Source: Chrysoperla carnea
Taxonomy: Eukaryota > Arthropoda > Insecta > Neuroptera > Chrysopidae
Length of the DNA stretch: 64,000 bases
Assembly (NCBI RefSeq): GCF_905475395.1
Contig: NC_058338.1
Span: 91,993,435-92,057,434 of the forward strand
Direction: 5' to 3'
In this document: positions 1-60,479 of the stretch, one piece after another
Numbering within the stretch: the first letter of the stretch is position 1
Layout of the letters: the number at the start of each line of letters is the position of its first letter
The notes under the pieces: generated by a model
The model's input: only the letters and a program-made list of their open reading frames with translations
What the model was told of the DNA's origin: nothing
The model's database searches: none
Made by a program: the position numbers and the translations under genes

Positions 1-1793
1 TTTGATTTTAAAGCTTAAAACTTGAGAAAAATTAATAAAAGTTTTATGTAAATGGTAAAACATTTTTAAAAGCACTTATTGGCAAAAAAATCAACATTTA
101 TTACGACTTCTTCATGTACCATCATGTAAAAAGGGCTGTTTTTAATAATTAATTTATCGTAAACCGTAAAGAGAAGCGACTTGTAATTTATACAGAAGGT
201 GTATTAAATACTCATTAATTGACACACAAAATTTCAGTTTTATGGTATTACTTTCGTTTTGATATCGAAACACCTTAATTCAATAATTCCGAACATGTTA
301 TATTTCCAATTTAACCATAAATTTTGTAGATCTTAAAAAAACCACAAGTGCTCTGATTGTAATAAAATTTAGCGCCTTCGATTATCTTTCGTCGAATCCG
401 ATGCTATTTTATTCGTTAAAAATTATCGAATTAATTTTTTTTTTAAGCGAAGATTAAAGTTTTATTATCGTAGATCTGATTTTAACGCGTACTGTTAAAT
501 TTATTCGAATTAGAAATATATGGTGAAACTTTTTTTATAAGAAATTTATCGATCAAAATATTTCTTAAATCGCCGTCCAAAATATGTGTTCTTTTATGAT
601 TATATAAAAACAATTTCCTAACAATAAAATTATGTCTTCCATATTCCATGGTTTCAAAATTTCAATATTTATCATAGTTTCCTTCATAATCGAACAGATT
701 TATTAATATATTCGAAAAATTTGTTATTATTATTTGATTTTTTATTCATAAAAAAGGAAGTAACATCCAGAAAATTTATATTTCAGTTGTTGCTTACTCT
801 AAAAGAAGTTAGAATAATGCGTCTTTATCTTTAAATATTAGAACAAGTAAAAAGCCTCAAATATTTGTGAAATAGGCTAATAAAGCCTTTTTGAAACACT
901 CCCCGAAGTTTTTGGGATAATTACGCTAAAAAAATAAAACTCCTCACTTTTATTTGTAAGTTTGTCTGGTCTCAGGCGATGTTTTTGGTATAATTCGCCC
1001 GCCCCGATTGGTAATGACGATTAAAATTTTGACCCACTCCTCGTTTTACCAAGAATCGATGCTAAAGGGTTCACCTCGTAGTCTTGGTGAAACACTACGA
1101 ATTCTAGACTGCCCCAATAAATAATTAAATTTTAGGAAATATCAACAATTTAAGAAAAGTTTTAAGACGTTAAATTTGTTGAAATTCACCTCCTCCCTCG
1201 TAAATCCGCGCTACGCTTAGTAATATCAACCCTCCCCCTGTTTGTGTGACTATTTTTGTTGTTTGGTTTATTTATAATGCGAAAACTGAGTCTGCAACTG
1301 ACTCAGACGCATAAATAACTGATTTTGCTAAATTAGTTAAATGTTTTTCTTTTTTTTTTATACTCATATGTTGTGCATATCCTGACTTGACTAAAAATGG
1401 CGTCGTTATTCCAACTCTTACTAGAGAAAGGAAAGTAATTGTCTGAAGTTTTATTAACGAATATAATTTTATTCTCTGTTATAAAATCCTAATAATGATT
1501 GTAACGAATTGTAATATTTAATTTATATTAAAAATTTGTAATCTTTTATAATTTGTAAATGGTTGTATTTTTGAATAAAAAAATTATTTAAGTTATTTTT
1601 TTAAAAAGAAAATAAAAAACTAATTGAAACTTATAAAAATCCTTTTTATTTATTATTTTGAGTAATCTTTTTTAAATATTTCTTGCGTCTGTGAGTCTCT
1701 AGGAATAGTATTCAAGGAAAAAAAGTAGTCAAATATTTGCTGATGGTGTATTACTTACTAACTTACTTCTATTCGTAGCGAAATCACTATATA
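1..1793. other. AT-rich intergenic DNA
   Basis: No open reading frame with domain character, no RNA gene and no complete transposon was recognised here. The stretch is AT-rich with homopolymer runs. I see nothing that supports a functional annotation. Confidence 0.5.
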
Positions 1794-2633
1794 CAGTGGA
1801 ACTTGGTTCAGTGGGACCTGAATTAATGAGAATACTCCATAACTGGAACTCATGCTGAGGTCCCAAAACTTTGGCACTTAATTACCTCTGTTAGTGAGAC
1901 GAAGCAAATCTCTATATCTAAAATTGGATCTTTCGATTTTATCGTCATAATTAACTCTACTACTAAGGCAGCGAGCGATTTTATATGAATTAACCCCTGT
2001 AACTGTGAACAGAGATAACATCGTTTTGTTTGTTTACTTACTTATTCTTATTCTACTCGCAAATTCCGCACTTAACTAATTTTGAGTCTTAATGACATTT
2101 TTCCCAGTTTTAGTTTTTACTATCTATACGGATGCTTATTTGAAAAATGCCGAAACGAAGGCTCAAATCGTTATCAGTACGTGAAAAACTGCAGTTAATA
2201 TTCGTTTATGCATGTGGGAAGATACTCGGTGAAGTCTGTGTCGAATTTATTGTGCGAAAAATTACTCTTTGTAGAATAATTCAGAATAAAGATAAAATTT
2301 AATCACAATGTTCTGAAGGATAAGGAAAACTAAAACGTGTGCGTTTATCAGAATATCCTGAACTTGAATAGTGTTTGCTAACATGGGTCAAGCACCTTCT
2401 TTACAAAAACGTTTCGGTAAGTGGACCGATGATTAAAGAAAAGTCACAAGATTTGGGGCGAAGGCTCGGTATTCATAATTTTTGTAGCAGCAATGATATT
2501 GATAATACGTTTTATTTAATAATCACACCTCTATAACTGAAATAACCTGTATTCTGACCTCAATTAATGGAACCCTCTGTATATGAGACATAATTTATTT
2601 ATACCTGACGTTTCACTTAACAAGGTTCCACTG
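1794..2633 (+). mobile_element. Decayed pogo/Tigger-type DNA transposon
   Basis: The element starts CAGTGGAAC and ends GTTCCACTG. A TA dinucleotide lies on each side (1792-1793 and 2634-2635), as in Tc1/mariner/pogo insertions. Inside is a broken transposase. An ATG at 2147 opens a 51-codon segment (stop at 2300-2302) that reads like the N-terminal helix-turn-helix of pogo/CENP-B proteins, beginning MPKRRLKSLSVREKLQL. After stops and shifts, a second segment (about 2335-2500) contains the string VSGPMIKEKSQDLGRRLG, which resembles the CENP-B-type second DNA-binding domain. No DDE catalytic domain was seen, and at about 840 bp the copy is internally deleted. It cannot be autonomous. Confidence 0.75.
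2147..2302 (+). pseudogene. Pogo transposase N-terminal fragment
   Basis: This is a 51-residue remnant of the psq/CENP-B-like helix-turn-helix of a pogo-family transposase. The pattern K-x-L-S-x-R-E-K-L near the start and the R-I-I-Q-N-K-D-K near the end match that domain as known from the family. Related coding sequence continues downstream in broken form. It belongs to the element at 1794-2633 and has no independent function. Confidence 0.65.
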
Positions 2634-2636
2634 TAT

Positions 2637-2735
2637 AAGAGATTTCTACAAAGAATAACTTTTTTTTTGTAAACCTTATAATAAAAAGTTTTCCATATGT
2701 GGCCAAGTTAAGAAGCATCCTGTATATTTCATATA
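2637..2735. repeat. Dispersed repeat shared with 15840-15950
   Basis: The stretch from 'gagatttcta' to 'catcctgtatat' resembles about 15848-15945, including the shared run aaaaagttttc followed by atatgt-gccaa. It abuts the Tigger copy. The family is not identified. Confidence 0.45.
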
Positions 2736-3007
2736 AAACTGTCTTAATAAGAATATAATATACTTAAAAATATATAAAAGCTGGAAAATTTTATGTAGAG
2801 AAATATGTATGTGACATCTGAGATATCTGGTGAAAAATATTATTATATTTTAAGAAAATGTTTTTACAACACTTAAGTTTTTATTTCAAAGATAAGTAGT
2901 TTTTTTTTTTTTCGTATTTTTATGTACATTTTTTTCCTACACATTTTATGTCTTTACTAGAAACAGTTAAGACAAAATGGTTGGTATTTTAATATTTCTA
3001 TTTACAG

Positions 3008-3228
3008 AAATTTTACCATCAATATCATATTCAAGAACGCCACGTGGAAATCCACGTTTAGTTGTCAACGGTTTTGTATACGTTGTTAAAGGCAACTATG
3101 GTATGACAACATTTTGGACATGTCAAAAACGTGGCTACGGGTGTCGTGTTTCATGCAGTACTAAAAATGGTGCATTACGAATGAAATCTGGTCAAAGGCA
3201 TAATCATCCACCGCCTGATCTTATCTAA
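3008..3228 (+). CDS. FLYWCH zinc-finger 3'-terminal exon, mod(mdg4)-like (copy 1)
   Basis: This is a terminal coding exon. The acceptor AG is at 3006-3007 after a T-rich tract, the reading frame is open for 221 nt, and it stops at TAA 3226-3228. The protein is one FLYWCH zinc finger: a G-x-P-R-L-V-V-N-G-F-V-Y stretch, then F-W-T-C, Y-G-C and a closing H-N-H-P-P, giving the C..C..H.H zinc ligands. The exon enters with two bases of a split codon, exactly as copy 2 does. An AATAAA lies about 70 nt downstream. In insects such exons are alternative C-termini of BTB proteins at mod(mdg4)-like loci, joined by cis- or trans-splicing to common 5' exons. The common exons are not in this window, so the parent gene is inferred. 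The upstream in-frame ATG at 2977 lies in the intron and is probably not used. Confidence 0.8.
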
Positions 3229-4404
3229 ATCTAAATCTATATTTAGTTTTTTTTTTTTTTTGTATATAATTTATTTTTTTTGTATAATAATTAATTTATT
3301 AATAAAAATAATATTAATATTAATTAATCTAATTCTAATCTATTTAATCGCCTATCGAAATCTACGCACAAGCCTATATGCTTCTAATTTAATTTCACTT
3401 TGGAGCATAATTCACTTCACTCGATTAATCAACTAAATGGCAGATCTAAAACTTATATATACTCAAGAAGAAAATAATTTAGAACCAGAAAAATAACACT
3501 TATTTTGATAGTTCCATTTTACGCAACGCCTCGAAGCGCATTCTCTTAAAACACTCTAAAAGGTGTTTATCTTCAAATAAGCCTCCATAAACGTCGTCAC
3601 AATTGCTACTGTGGTCAAAATTGAATTATCGGCCTGCAAGAACCACAAATTAATCCACAATTCTGGCCCTTTTTTATTAGTTTTCTCAATCAAGCTCGTC
3701 TGAATTTTTGAGAAACTTTATCGTATTTTTAGCCCCGCTTTTTTAACGCTTTGTATGACATTTAGCCTTGTTTTCTTATAAATCTGATTCATTTTTAGTC
3801 TTTTCTAACATTTGGAACGAACTTTCTCTCGAAAAACAAATTTGGGGGGCGAAATTAACTAAACCAATCCGTATATTCTGGATATTGGAGAGATGGATAA
3901 AACCAAGGTCTGTAAACAAAAAAGTTAGATTCATTCCCATTTTCCCAATCGGTCGTACAGGCGAGGTCTATTACCCATATTTGACCGCCTTTTCCAAGAT
4001 GGCGGTGAAGGGGTTTATTTCCCGAATACGCAAAATCAGATTTAAAGTCTCCAAACAACCCCCTATTGAATAAATGAAAAAAAAATGTAGTGTCATAAAC
4101 TTTTGAATGACTCCTTACCCACCCCTAAAAAATTTTAACGGGCTTTAAAGTATATCGTTTTACAGCATTAACCGTAGTTTGAGAAATAGTTTTGTTTGTT
4201 TTACAGTTTTCATTTCGAAAACAAAAAGTGTAATTAAAATTTTTTTGAAATATTTTGTGAAATTCCGACACACAAGATTTGTTGCATGTTTTCTAAATTA
4301 TCCTAAAAGTTGAGTAATTTTAGATAAAATTCTGTATTTTTTTTTTAAATTAAAATTTATAATTTGAAAGCAAAAGTATATAAAAAATATTTTATTTGTT
4401 TCAG

Positions 4405-4625
4405 ACAATTCATCACCATATTTAATAAAAACTTCGAAAGGTTTCTCACGTTTAATAGTTGAAGGATATGCATTTAGTATTAAAAGTCGTTACAATACAA
4501 CAATCTTTTGGAATTGCTGCAATAAAGGACGTGGTTGTAAAGTTACATGTTCCACGAAAAATGGTATGTTACGCATGAAATATGGACAGGAGCATACGCA
4601 TCCACCGAATGCGCATGAACAATAA
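4405..4625 (+). CDS. FLYWCH zinc-finger 3'-terminal exon, mod(mdg4)-like (copy 2)
   Basis: This is a second terminal exon, also exactly 221 nt from its acceptor (AG 4403-4404, after tttgtttc) to the TAA at 4623-4625, and in the same splice phase as copy 1. It encodes a FLYWCH finger: G-F-S-R-L-I-V-E-G-Y-A-F, then F-W-N-C, G-C-K-V-T-C-S-T-K-N-G and H-T-H-P-P. The segment C-S-T-K-N-G-x-L-R-M-K-x-G-Q is shared with copy 1, so the two are paralogous exons made by tandem duplication. AATAAA motifs follow at about 4725-4745. The role inferred from mod(mdg4) biology is to give a BTB-domain chromatin protein an alternative DNA- or protein-binding C-terminus. No start codon is expected in this exon. 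Confidence 0.82.
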
Positions 4626-4892
4626 TTTAAAAAAATTTTTCCCTCCATAAAGAAAAATTCAAACACAATCAACAATATTTTGTAAAAAGAAAATGCTGTT
4701 CCAAAATAACTCAGGAGGTAAAAATAAAGAAAAAAATAAAAATAAAAACTTCAATATTATTCGTCATTGTGTTAAATAAAAAAAATTATTTTATTTTGTT
4801 TGGTTCAATAAAATTATAGAGAATGGTTATAAAATCGGCAAAATTGATGAAAACAGTTTTTAGTTTTTAAGTTATGATTGTATTTACTTCAG

Positions 4893-5099
4893 AATTTGTC
4901 ATAAATAAAATTGGAAAAGGATTGACATTAATTTCCTTACTCTTGGACAAAGAGTATTCATACCGACATTATGAGGCAATTTTAAAACGAAAAAAGTCGA
5001 GAATATGCTTATCTAAAATCGACAACATACACCGGCTGCGGCAGGCAGTGCCATAGGTACGGTTGCAAGGCTATCTGCTCCACCCAAAGCGAGGCGTAA
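4893..5099 (+). pseudogene. Frameshifted third FLYWCH exon
   Basis: After a possible acceptor (AG 4891-4892, tttacttcag) the frame used by copies 1 and 2 opens with a weak FLYWCH start (G-K-G-L-T-L-I, then E-Y-S-Y). The cysteine half appears only in another frame, at about 5027-5096: T-G-C-G-R-Q-C-H-R-Y-G-C-K-A-I-C-S-T, followed by TAA at 5097-5099. The Y-G-C-K-x-x-C-S-T core matches the two intact exons. The tryptophan is replaced and the H-x-H end is missing. It lies 268 bp downstream of copy 2 in the same orientation. It is most likely a dead duplicate; sequencing error is less likely because the C-terminus is also lost. Confidence 0.5.
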
Positions 5100-55215: not shown

Positions 55216-55847
55216 TAAATCAAATTATCAACATCCGATTGAATGTTTTATATAAAAATCAGTCTAAAGAAATAATTAGTTTATTTATTTTTATTATTAT
55301 TTTGTAAATAGTTTTGCATGCTATTACAATATTGCTCCGGATACATGATTGGAATTTAACCTTGCTAAAGGATTATTAATAAATATATATAGGTAGATAT
55401 ATATTTAGAGTAAGTATTGTTTTTCCAAACAGTGTCATGTTTACCATTTAAATCACTCATTTAGATTATATAGCACGATATTTGTACATTTGAACAAAGT
55501 GTTCGAAAAACTTCTTAGACCGGAGACTACACTCCTCGACAAAAATTCCTAAACCTACAAAAAAACTAGTGATAAGTAAAAATTTAAAAAAAACTTTACC
55601 AATCTGATTTGAACAAAGTGTCTGTTGGGAAAAATATCTAAGAACGGAAACTACACATCTTTAAAAAAAAAAAACCGCTGAAAATGAAACGCGAAACAAA
55701 CCCTTTGACAAAAATTTTTAAACTTAAAATAAACCAGAATTGAGTACAAATTTTAGTGTCTCAAAGTAAAATAATCTACAAAACTGATCAAGATAACTCA
55801 ATTCAAATTAAAATTGATTAGCTCAAGTTATATACAACTAGTAGAGT

Positions 55848-57825
55848 AAGATCCCGGTGCCCCCAGACGTTACTTATTTTCTCATAAGAAATATAAATGG
55901 GATAAAGTAGTGTTAGTACGAACTTTGAGTGTGTGCATACCTGCTACCTTGGGTCGACGGCCAATTCATAGGTACCAGGTGCTAAAGGTAGATAAATACA
56001 GTACTGATTTTTCTCAAATTCTCAGTGCTGATTTTTACATATGTTTTAGATATTTTTGTTAATAATCAATAATCATTATTGCCAGACACTTTCCATCGGC
56101 GCTTACCCTTACCAGACGCTTTAAAGCTTCAAAAAAAAAACATATTCTTACTTATAATCTCACTCTTGATTTTTATATATGATACTCAGGGAACTATTTG
56201 AACACCCCTGGTCAGCAGCCAGACCAATTGGAGGGGTCAAACATCCCCCCAGACACACATAAAGTGTCGCTATGTGTATAAGCGCGAGGGCATTATTTGT
56301 ACGCTTGAGTGTGAGAGAGATATCTATTTATGGAAATCTTTCTTATACTTATTGTCGTCTCTAGGCTACTCTATTCCGTGCTACTCGATTCAGTGCATCT
56401 GTGATTTTATTTACAACGTGTTGAAATAGAAAAACTATTTATAGTATTCTAAAAAATATAATGGCAGAATTATTAAAGTGTGTGTTTTGTGAGAATTCCG
56501 ATGTGAATTTAATGTATTGAAAAAAAAAGCAGAGTACCAGATAGCATTTATGAAACTCGGCAAAGTAGACTTATTCAGTGACTTAGAACTGGAGCAAAAT
56601 GTGTTTAACACTATACAAAAATTTATTTGTGAACTGTACAACGTGGCCGGAATAATTGACGTAGATGCTGCCCGACTCCAACTCTTCATCAACACTTATA
56701 TGGTTTGTGACGTAAATGAAGAGTTCAATCGAAAAAATGTGAAAAACTTTGATGCTAGTAACTTACCACCATGCAAAAGTGAGCTTTTACAACAGTTTCG
56801 ACGAGCTAATTATATCACTAGTCTCTGGAAGAATGTTCATATGAAGAAAATTAGTATTTTTAGTCCTGACAATAATGGGTGGACGTTGGAAGATAATAAA
56901 TATCATTTTAACTGGTTTGATGGGGACCAATTGCCGAGCTTTGTCAATGAATCGCTTCAAGAAGAATCAGGTATTATACTTTAACTTTGAATAATTGATA
57001 TAACCGTGTAAGTCTTTGATTCTTAATTATGTTATTTTTGTTACAGAAAATGAAAGTAATAAGGATGATAATGAAGATAGTCAATGCCAACATTGGGTTG
57101 ATGATGACTTATCAAACTTAGACGATGATGACAGTAAAGATCACGCTGAATTGTAAAATGACATGTATAGCTTTGTATAATTTTAAGATTTAATAAACAT
57201 GAATTTTTTAAATAGTAGTATTCAATTTTACTCGATGATAAGATGTAAAACATAGGTTAAAGAAACTCATATTTATTATTCATAAAATTTTCTCAACCCA
57301 GATCACTTTAAAATACCTTGTAATCTTCAGGTTCGATTCCATTTTGCATGTAACGAATCTTTAATCTCTCTTGATTATATCGAACAGAGCAGAATTTTAG
57401 CGACACTTTATGTGTGTCTGGGGGGATGTTTGACCCCTCCAATTGGTCTGGCTGCTGACCAGGGGTGTTCAAATAGTTCCCTGAGTATCATATATAAAAA
57501 TCAAGAGTGAGATTATAAGTAAGAATATGTTTTTTTTTTTTTGAAGCTTTAAAGCGTCTGGTAAGGGTAAGCGCCGATGGAAAGTGTCTGGCAATAATGA
57601 TTATTGATTATTAACAAAAATATCTAAAACATATGTAAAAATCAGCACTGAGAATTTGAGAAAAATCAGTACTGTATTTATCTACCTTTAGCACCTGGTA
57701 CCTATGAATTGGCCGTCGACCCAAGGTAGCAGGTATGCACACACTCAAAGTTCGTACTAACACTACTTTATCCCATTTATATTTCTTATGAGAAAATAAG
57801 TAACGTCTGGGGGCACCGGGATCTT
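55848..57825 (+). mobile_element. Young DNA transposon with 424-427 bp terminal inverted repeats
   Basis: The left arm (55848-56271) and right arm (57399-57825) are reverse complements; in a read-through the only clear difference is the length of an A/T run. The ends are AAGATCCCGGTGCCCCCAG and its complement. The unique centre of about 1.1 kb encodes one spliced gene (56461-57156). The arm identity implies recent insertion or arm homogenisation. I find no DDE transposase motif, and no convincing target duplication can be read at the edges. The superfamily is not assigned. It may be a non-autonomous or satellite-type element that keeps an accessory gene. Confidence 0.85.
56461..57156 (+). pseudogene. 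Gene carried by the long-TIR transposon, frameshifted near the start
   Basis: ATG 56461 starts M-A-E-L-L-K-C-V-F-C-E-N (a C-x-x-C pair) but the frame ends at TGA 56518-56520, just before a run of nine A. From the A run the -1 frame is open for about 150 codons to a donor at 56970/56971 (gtatta). An acceptor (ttacag, 57045-57046) joins in phase to a 36-codon acidic end (many D/E) stopping at 57154-57156; AATAAA follows at about 57190. The middle has L-P-P-C-K-S-E-L-L-Q-Q-F-R-R-A-N-Y, then S-L-W-K and N-N-G-W, a pattern I have seen in uncharacterised, often transposon-borne insect and cnidarian proteins. I cannot name a function. Apart from the single shift it looks intact, so the shift may be recent or an assembly error in the homopolymer. 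Confidence 0.6.
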
Positions 57826-57831
57826 GGTCTA

Positions 57832-58290
57832 TAGCTGTGAACTACCCGCTTTGTTGGGCAACATCCCCACTTGCTCCCCTCCCTCCATATTTCCTTGCGT
57901 GGGATAAAAGTTTTGTAATGTACACGTCATGCTCTTTTATTTGATACCCCACTTAGGTATATTTGTAAATATTCGATAATTCCTTCCCACTTTCTCGCTA
58001 CACCTTTCTACCCTCCGAAGGTTAAAAGTAGTATATCGTGTCAATATTTGAGCTTAATCGATGCACAACTTTTTTAGTTTTTGAAGCATTTCCCTTTCAA
58101 CCCCTATTTCAACCCCTTACTCTACTATAATATGCATGTATTATACATTAAAACCTTCCTCTTGAATCACTCTATCTATTAAAAAAATCATCATCAAAAT
58201 CCGTTGCGTAGTTTCAAAGATTTAAGCATACAAAGGGACATAGGGACATAGGGACAGAGAAAGCTACTTTGTTTTATACTATGTATTGAT
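57832..58290 (+). mobile_element. RTE-type LINE 3' end
   Basis: From 'agctgtgaactacccgcttt' through 'cttcctcttgaatcactcta', 'catcaaaatccgttgcgtag' and 'gggacatagggacagagaaa' to 'ttgttttatactatgta'. This is a very common insect RTE tail. It abuts the right end of the long-TIR element; with 52878 and 19862 it is the third clear RTE tail in the window. Confidence 0.7.
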
Positions 58291-58620
58291 ATTGCGAGAA
58301 GTCGGAAGATAAATATCACGTTTTCTGAGGAACATTTTTAAAATAGTGTATCCCTTACGTTATATACAAATCTTTACTGAAGTGTTTTTTAAAGGTATGC
58401 TTTATTTTGTAACAAATCTAATTTTCTTAAGATTAATTTGGAAAACTAATACTCATTTGTTAAAATCATTTAAAATATTTATTTTTAAAGAAAATTCTAA
58501 CATGTAACACTCGTTATTCCATAAGATACATTTAAAGTGATGAAATAAATGCTATTTTTGTGTTATTTCTTCTATAAGTGATTTTCTCTAAATCTTTAGG
58601 CATCAACATTTCCAATACTA

Positions 58621-58781
58621 CTCTCTAAAGGTTGAAATAGTGAAAATGGTGACTATTCACTATTTTTTAGTGAGAAGTATATCACTATTTCAAATAGTGG
58701 TATCCTTCTCACTAGCAAATAGTGAATAGTCACTACAAAATAGTGATTTGTTAAACTATTCACTATTTCGTTTTTAGAGAG
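58621..58781. mobile_element. TA-flanked MITE, ends CTCTCTAAA / TTTAGAGAG
   Basis: A 161-bp element built of repeats of 'actattcactatttt' and complements. The terminal repeat CTCTCTAAA is matched by TTTAGAGAG, with TA on both sides (58619-58620 and 58782-58783), as in mariner-like MITEs. The whole unit folds on itself. Confidence 0.75.
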
Positions 58782-60479
58782 TATGGTATATATTGAAAAA
58801 TTTTACTCTTAATTTTTTTCTAAATTTCCCAAGTTCTACTAACATTTTATCCTCAAAATTTGAAACGTAATTTGGGTCGAGGAAAATTTTTGAAATCTTT
58901 CAATCAAATCTGGAAAGTTGGCAACTCTTCAATTATACAATGTTATAGTATACTACTTTTGAAACATATTGTAAATTGCCATTTTCTAGATTACATTAGA
59001 TATTTCAACTTGTAGATAATTAAAATTTTTCATGTTATTCAATTTAACCATGACATCACCTACACTTTAAAAGTTAATAGAGCAAAAGTCTAGAAGCTAT
59101 AAGATATGAAAACTTGGTTGCTCATTTTATAATAAGTAAATAATTTTGTTACTGAGCCTTTTGACACTATTTTTCCAACTTCATATAAAAAACATCAAGC
59201 TTCCCATTAAAAATTGTACATTCTTAAACACTCAAAAGTATTACTTTTACTTTCATAGTAAACTTTTCACCGCTTTCAAATCGTTTCAAATAGGCATCTA
59301 CGTAATCAAAAAAATTGCTTATGAAACTTAAAACGAGTGATCAGTTAAATATGATGATCTTTTATAAAAATTTCATTTTTGTGTGGAATACTGATCGAAA
59401 AAATATACGTTTCAAACTATATTTGAGAACAAAATTTAAAATTCCTTTAGGTTTTCCAGTTTCGTTTAATATCTAAAACGGTAGATTGAATAGGGAATAT
59501 TAATGTTTTTTTTTTATATTTTTAATTCATTGCTACACTGTTATAAATAACATAGTAAAAATAAATACTTTTTAAAAATGCGTTAATTAAGTGTAAAAAA
59601 ATATTTAAAATATTGGCGCTTTATGTTGATGACGAATTAATAATGACCTGTCAATTGATGACAGTTCAATGTATAACTTACACTTTAAAAAAATGACTTT
59701 ACAACATAGAATTTACACTCGTTATTATTAAGTTTTCTAATAAAAAGTCGTAGAAAAATATAACTCAATGTAATACCATACAAAATATAAGTAATTAATA
59801 CCATACAGTATGCCAACGAATTTTACAAGCCAATACAATGACGTTATGTCCGTTTTAAAATTTGAATTTCTAAATTTTTTTTATTAATTAAGTTTAAGTA
59901 ATTAAAAAGATATTAATTACTAAAATAATGGGTTAGTTGCAATATCCAGCCAATAAAGTTACGGAAAAAAAATTTTGAATCAAATTTAAATTTAATGAAT
60001 ATTCCCTATTGTGGAAATAATTTTGAAGACAAAAGTTGTTATTATAATAAGCTTGAAAATGAGTATAAAGCTCCCCAACTATAAAGAGAAGTTATTAATT
60101 ATGTGTTGATTATCAGATGAAAATCCATGACATAAGTTTATAAACATTTTGTAGATAAAACTTACATATACTAAATTTGCATTCATTAATATTTTCCTGC
60201 ACTTTTCAGTTATAAATAATGCATCAACAGTTAAGCTTGTTAACCCTCGACTTTTGTTTTAAAATGGTGGAAGCTCTGGGAAGTGTAAATATAGGAATAT
60301 TATAATGTACTACATTGAATATATATAGCTTTAAAATATGCATTATGTCTAAAAAATTTGAGGGCTTATTAAAAACTTTCAAAAAGTTTTAACTTTCTTA
60401 TTTTTGCTGTTTTCAAAGAAAATTAACAGTTTTGTTCGAATTATTATTCATTTAAAAGCTGTGTACATTATGTCATATA
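58782..60479. other. Intergenic, no gene seen
   Basis: AT-rich sequence without a recognisable gene or repeat family. Confidence 0.5.

Follow-up and report, generated by a model that had tools for sequence, protein, structure and literature searches.

An internally deleted, non-autonomous DNA transposon, probably of the Academ superfamily, with unequal tips on near-identical arms in Chrysoperla carnea

The 64,000-nucleotide stretch of DNA analysed here (the window; C2:91993435-92057434, G000) contains at positions 55842-57831 what is very probably an Academ-like, most plausibly AcademX, cut-and-paste DNA transposon, in a copy that is non-autonomous and has an internal deletion. Its parent would have been about 6.2 kb long, with inverted arms of about 430 bp and one long spliced gene for a protein of about 1,600 amino acids; the copy in the window lacks about 4.2 kb, with a microhomology at the join, so that its first codons run out of frame into what is left of the gene's C-terminal end. 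The element itself is an ordinary derivative, probably of a transposon type already described; what sets it apart most is the inequality of the tips of its two arms.

The ends of the element lie six bases farther out on each side than the limits of 55848 and 57825 given in the initial annotation. The left, or gene-5′, arm occupies 55842-56272 on the plus strand (431 nt, tip TAGAGTAAGATCCCGG), and the right, or gene-3′, arm 57398-57831 on the minus strand (434 nt, tip read inward TAGACCAAGATCCCGG); they pair as 55842-56140 with 57533-57831 at 99% identity, and as 56131-56272 with 57398-57539 at 100%. The arms are thus real, as had been described, but longer than the 424 nt or so reported, and they differ not only by the length of a homopolymer but also by two substitutions in 431 aligned sites, at tip positions 5-6. 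The element is flanked by a TAG target site duplication, at 55839-55841 and 57832-57834, and it lies near the edge of a dispersed high-copy repeat (57835 to about 58290; 1,298 first-look candidates with the joined flank query) that served as the target of insertion. Paralogous empty sites exist, with a single TAG read through in all six copies of the repeat fetched, out of 38 matching rows outside the window. Two other features of the neighbourhood are an AT-rich, MITE-like foldback element just downstream, at 58619-58783, with at least 82 matching pieces (40 of 257 candidates scored), and an imperfect direct repeat to the left, 55531-55564 against 55700-55733, 76% identical over 34 nt.

A search of the 559-Mb genome with the left arm, as had been proposed, returned, from the 40 of 46 candidates that were scored, at least 42 matching pieces. 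Twenty places were fetched, of which 14 hold two-ended copies, three (L017, L023, and L025) a single end, and three (L026-L028) arm relatives only, at about 71-78% identity. All 14 two-ended copies have 3-bp duplications, read by eye from the flanks: TAG, AAA, TAA, ATA, TCT, TTA, TAA, TTG, TAA, AAA, GTA, TAT, TTC, and TTA. One of them, L021 (C3:1368481-1376689), is full-length, with 6,215 bp between ends of the window type; one of its strands has an N-terminal frame starting MAELLKCVFC, followed by frames of 1,241 and 283 amino acids. This gene is interrupted: the first frame switches to another in a low-complexity stretch, by a frameshift or an intron that escaped recognition, and the third frame is cut off from the second by a stop. 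Five copies, including that in the window, share a deletion of L021 bases 667-4898 with a 7-nt overlap, ATTTAAT, at the join (56507-56513 in the window); six copies share two other deletions, and L015 and L022 each have a private one, that of L022 with extra bases at the join. Among the 14 copies the shared ends thus enclose four classes of deletion. Such deletions may have arisen by break repair following excision. Because L021 is the only full-length member of the family found and its frame is interrupted, the present source of transposase is something we infer; the short copies would depend for their movement on protein supplied in trans by longer relatives.

The coding content of the window copy is accounted for by the same comparison. 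An ATG at 56461 opens a fragment (56461-56520, plus strand) with the N-terminus seen in L021, which crosses the deletion junction and stops after 19 codons; the join puts MAELLKCVFCENSDVNL and the downstream remnant in different frames, so that the Cys-x-x-Cys start is not, as had been supposed, in frame with the L-P-P-C..R-A-N-Y..W domain. That domain lies in the remnant of the C-terminal coding exon (56507-56970), followed by a GT-AG intron (56971-57046), a last exon with the acidic tail and stop codon (57047-57156), and an AATAAA polyadenylation signal (57192-57197), all on the plus strand. The intron, and with it the spliced acidic tail of the initial annotation, is supported by a relative, L030, in which a GT..AG of matching position and phase precedes the acidic tail; the polyadenylation signal likewise stands. 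The 163-amino-acid frame matches the end of the 283-amino-acid frame of L021 at 96% identity and the end of the 1,584-amino-acid frame of L030 at 61%, and is therefore not a non-transposase cargo gene but the C-terminal end of a transposase-like gene that a longer relative, L021, carries between the same arms. The suggestion of a derivative of a larger element was thus well founded: the ends are those of the longer relative, the interior is gone, and a coding remnant is kept. A Pfam scan of the window frame gave no match, and a single-sequence AlphaFold model of it was unusable (mean pLDDT 34.8).

At least 52 pieces matched the 1,241-amino-acid query, with 37 of 355 candidates scored; some of them hold uninterrupted frames of 1,474 to 1,588 amino acids. 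L030 encodes its 1,584 amino acids in one frame within an element of about 7.5 kb, with arms of at least 692 bp and an ATA duplication (read by eye), and six other proteins align to it at 38-61% identity (for L021, minus the C-terminal part that is split off). Four relatives with open frames of 1,533 amino acids have identical match scores (C3:8842604, C3:16660168, C6:10691449, and C6:10897411) and probably represent a recently active autonomous lineage. At L033:1-1143 a 381-amino-acid frame, which we take to resemble a retroelement integrase, adjoins a transposase relative of 1,378 amino acids. There are also amplified short elements reduced to the two arms and the C-terminal transposase domain, of two types: a second family (L058-L060; L058-type), of which L030 is the parent, and a third (L061-L064; L061-type) with a 219-amino-acid frame. 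The 3-bp duplication recurs in the one second-family copy (L030) and all four third-family copies examined.

The family has moved recently, in keeping with its description as a young element with long inverted repeats. L018 and L019, about 15 kb apart on C1 and in opposite orientation, show no mismatches and one gap over 2,407 aligned bp (99.96% identity); this near-identity, together with different duplications and unshared flanks, points to recent movement, and the pair is possibly the product of a very recent, local transposition. The arms of a single copy differ on average by 1.94%, with the window copy at 0.46% and L015 at 4.76%; between copies, left arms differ by 1.55%, right arms by 2.17%, and left from right by 2.40%. 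In L012, L018/L019, L021, and L022, some variants private to one copy (or to the L018/L019 pair) are present in both of its arms, and arm-to-arm copying is likely in these copies. It is not wholesale, because the within-copy mean of 1.94% is not below the left-left value of 1.55%; the suggestion of gene conversion between the arms has support in some copies. In the other families, arm identity, taken over the longest match in each case, is 96-100% in L030 and L058-L064.

The two tips of each element are kept apart. In all 14 two-ended copies of the window family, positions 5-6 read GT in the gene-5′ tip and CC in the gene-3′ tip, and the one exception to the wider tip sequence is the gene-3′ tip of L021, which starts TAT rather than TAG. 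Using a pattern in which TRG is fixed and positions 4-6 are free (tips with other mismatches escape it), we identified 58 tips forming 27 pairs in the second family, L030 among them, and 76 tips forming 33 pairs in the third, with four and ten tips unpaired, respectively. Every pair (27/27 and 33/33) has one AG-type and one WC-type tip. Together with the window family, this makes 74 of 74 two-ended elements in which positions 4-5 are AG in one tip and WC in the opposite one, although the few ancestors from which the copies stem mean that these counts are not independent events. Among pairs whose orientation can be read from a coding remnant, 8/8 in the second family and 30/32 in the third have the AG-type tip on the gene-5′ side; in the two exceptions the interior appears inverted between tips that are still unequal. 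These two copies, at C5:9974434-9976344 and C5:45047007-45048900, look as if their long arms had recombined.

A difference at the tips of arms that are otherwise near-identical, where measured, suggests end-specific recognition: the transposase would tell the two ends apart, so that AG- and WC-type tips stay distinct even as the remainder of the arms is partly homogenised. It is possible, though less likely than not, that the tips form a polarity code, TRGAGY at the gene-5′ end and TRGWCY at the gene-3′ end (in all but one tip), maintained in three families with differing arms because the transposase needs two non-equivalent ends. Alternatively, conversion could seldom reach the last bases of a shared arm. 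We favour a requirement of the transposase because the direction of the difference is the same in all three families, but the matter is not settled. We found no account of unequal tips in the accessible parts of the literature searched, and make no claim that they are unpublished.

The predicted layout of the protein of about 1,600 amino acids comprises an N-terminal zinc-finger-like part, a candidate DDE core, a candidate FEN1/XPG-like nuclease, and the C-terminal L-P-P-C..R-A-N-Y..W domain with its acidic tail. In the putative core, all seven aligned proteins keep the D of Y-D-L-A-I-A as well as the E of L-E-Q-T-I-N, and six keep the D of F-D-N; the longer relative with a DDE gene between the same arms that was to be looked for would be L021, with its DDE core at the level of candidate residues. 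The nuclease candidate covers L030:4609-5586. Seven of its acidic positions (in IIDGF, FDQY, two in EEAD, two in DTD, and GCDY; alignment A1), which follow the FEN1/XPG order, are present in 11 of 12 rows, L037 lacking four. Compared with the host EXO1 alone, the region aligned at the IIDGF and FDQY positions in order, with a probability of 3.9%; a profile of host EXO1/FEN1/GEN1-like proteins scored 25.25, which was equalled or exceeded by 2 of 100 column shuffles, with the motifs beyond FDQY misaligned. Residue order and these weak profile matches are suggestive of a FEN1/XPG-type nuclease, but are not proof. A profile search of solved structures with this region retrieved no nuclease, and a Pfam scan of it was likewise negative. 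Pfam scans of the relatives' proteins gave no family above its curated cut-off, no transposase match, and no helicase family, the weaker matches including DUF6589, for which we found no paper linking it to a transposon. Searches of phage records and solved structures with the proteins gave nothing above cut-off, no transposase relative was confirmed in viral contigs, and no FEN1-like sequence was confirmed in viral and prokaryote contigs.

AcademX nucleases are of the XPG type, and internally deleted non-autonomous elements are familiar from Ds and the deleted P elements. Like these, the window copy keeps both ends and a remnant of coding sequence, has lost its interior, and is presumably mobilised in trans; it differs in belonging with another transposase family and in having arms of hundreds rather than tens of bp. 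The accessible text of one study ties duplications of 3 or 4 bp in AcademX, and of 9 or 10 bp in AcademH, to the encoded helicase and nuclease (PMC10045372). In similarly partial texts, Academ is treated as a DDE/D superfamily with a mean length of 5,565 bp in bivalves (PMC10294476) and is recorded in moths and parasitoid wasps (PMC5704228), with nothing decisive for placement in the corresponding parts of PMC9783078, PMC5753468, and PMC10799480. AcademX is the likely, though not proven, home of the present elements because their 3-bp duplications and candidate nuclease fit these printed traits; the placement is by described features. Inverted arms, large size, and a long protein are further likenesses, and at 6.2 kb and about 7.5 kb L021 and L030 compare with the bivalve mean. 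The window copy departs from AcademX in retaining just both ends of the gene, and its unequal tips have no counterpart in the parts of the AcademX literature consulted. AcademH shares the superfamily name, but has longer duplications and a helicase, whereas here the duplications are of 3 bp and the scanned proteins gave no helicase family.

The initial annotation considered a poorly described superfamily, and an altogether new one with long inverted repeats, its gene unrelated to known transposases, would agree with the lack of any Pfam family above its curated cut-off. We regard this as improbable given the fit of the 3-bp duplications and of a nuclease candidate with seven acidic residues to AcademX as printed in the accessible text of PMC10045372, and a length close to the bivalve mean (PMC10294476); a match to a described superfamily is probable, though not certain. 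The near-identity of the arms might also be expected if a collapsed haplotype or a duplicated contig end had created an apparent inverted repeat during assembly. The chance of this is negligible, as each of the 14 two-ended copies lies at a separate place with its own flanks and duplication, the tip bases are arm-specific in all 14, and paralogous sites occur without the element.

It could be argued instead that the short frame encodes a real C-terminal-only product that binds the ends and represses or aids transposition, and was kept as each family amplified such a copy, much as P elements have truncated repressors. Derivatives with both arms and only the C-terminal domain have been amplified in three families, and the frame is open in many of them, but the pattern of substitution makes this very unlikely. 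In eight copies of the window family the C-terminal region has 3 synonymous, 13 nonsynonymous, and 2 nonsense changes (dN/dS 1.31; small counts); the nine second-family places that match the query end to end, over a stretch that starts with some arm sequence, have 8, 23, and 1 (0.93; small counts); and 28 of 43 matching third-family pieces have 16, 84, and 4 (1.51), with a nonsense rate 1.26 times the synonymous one. Indels that shift the frame are present in 5 of 9 and 14 of 28 copies of the second and third families, respectively. No purifying selection is thus seen on the short frames in the three families, which with the nonsense changes and frameshifts makes them look like passengers. Furthermore, the matches listed (40 of 53 candidates scored) include no C-terminal frame for 19 of 27 second-family pairs, yet these elements spread, and the natural start codon of the window copy is out of frame. 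We dropped a selected short-frame product as a novel reading on the dN/dS values of all three families, and the window frame would yield no selected product. The amplification of C-terminal-only derivatives in three families is curious; the simplest explanation is that this coding end adjoins the right arm.

What appeared to be a transposon with unknown cargo is thus a dissected family whose parent and separate deletion classes are recognised, which has moved recently, and whose coding remnants are neutral. The case serves as a caution that short open frames inside elements with long terminal inverted repeats can be the tails of transposases rather than cargo. The unequal tips offer a simple handle on how a poorly studied transposase discriminates its ends, and bear on how the identity of the ends survives homogenisation of long arms.
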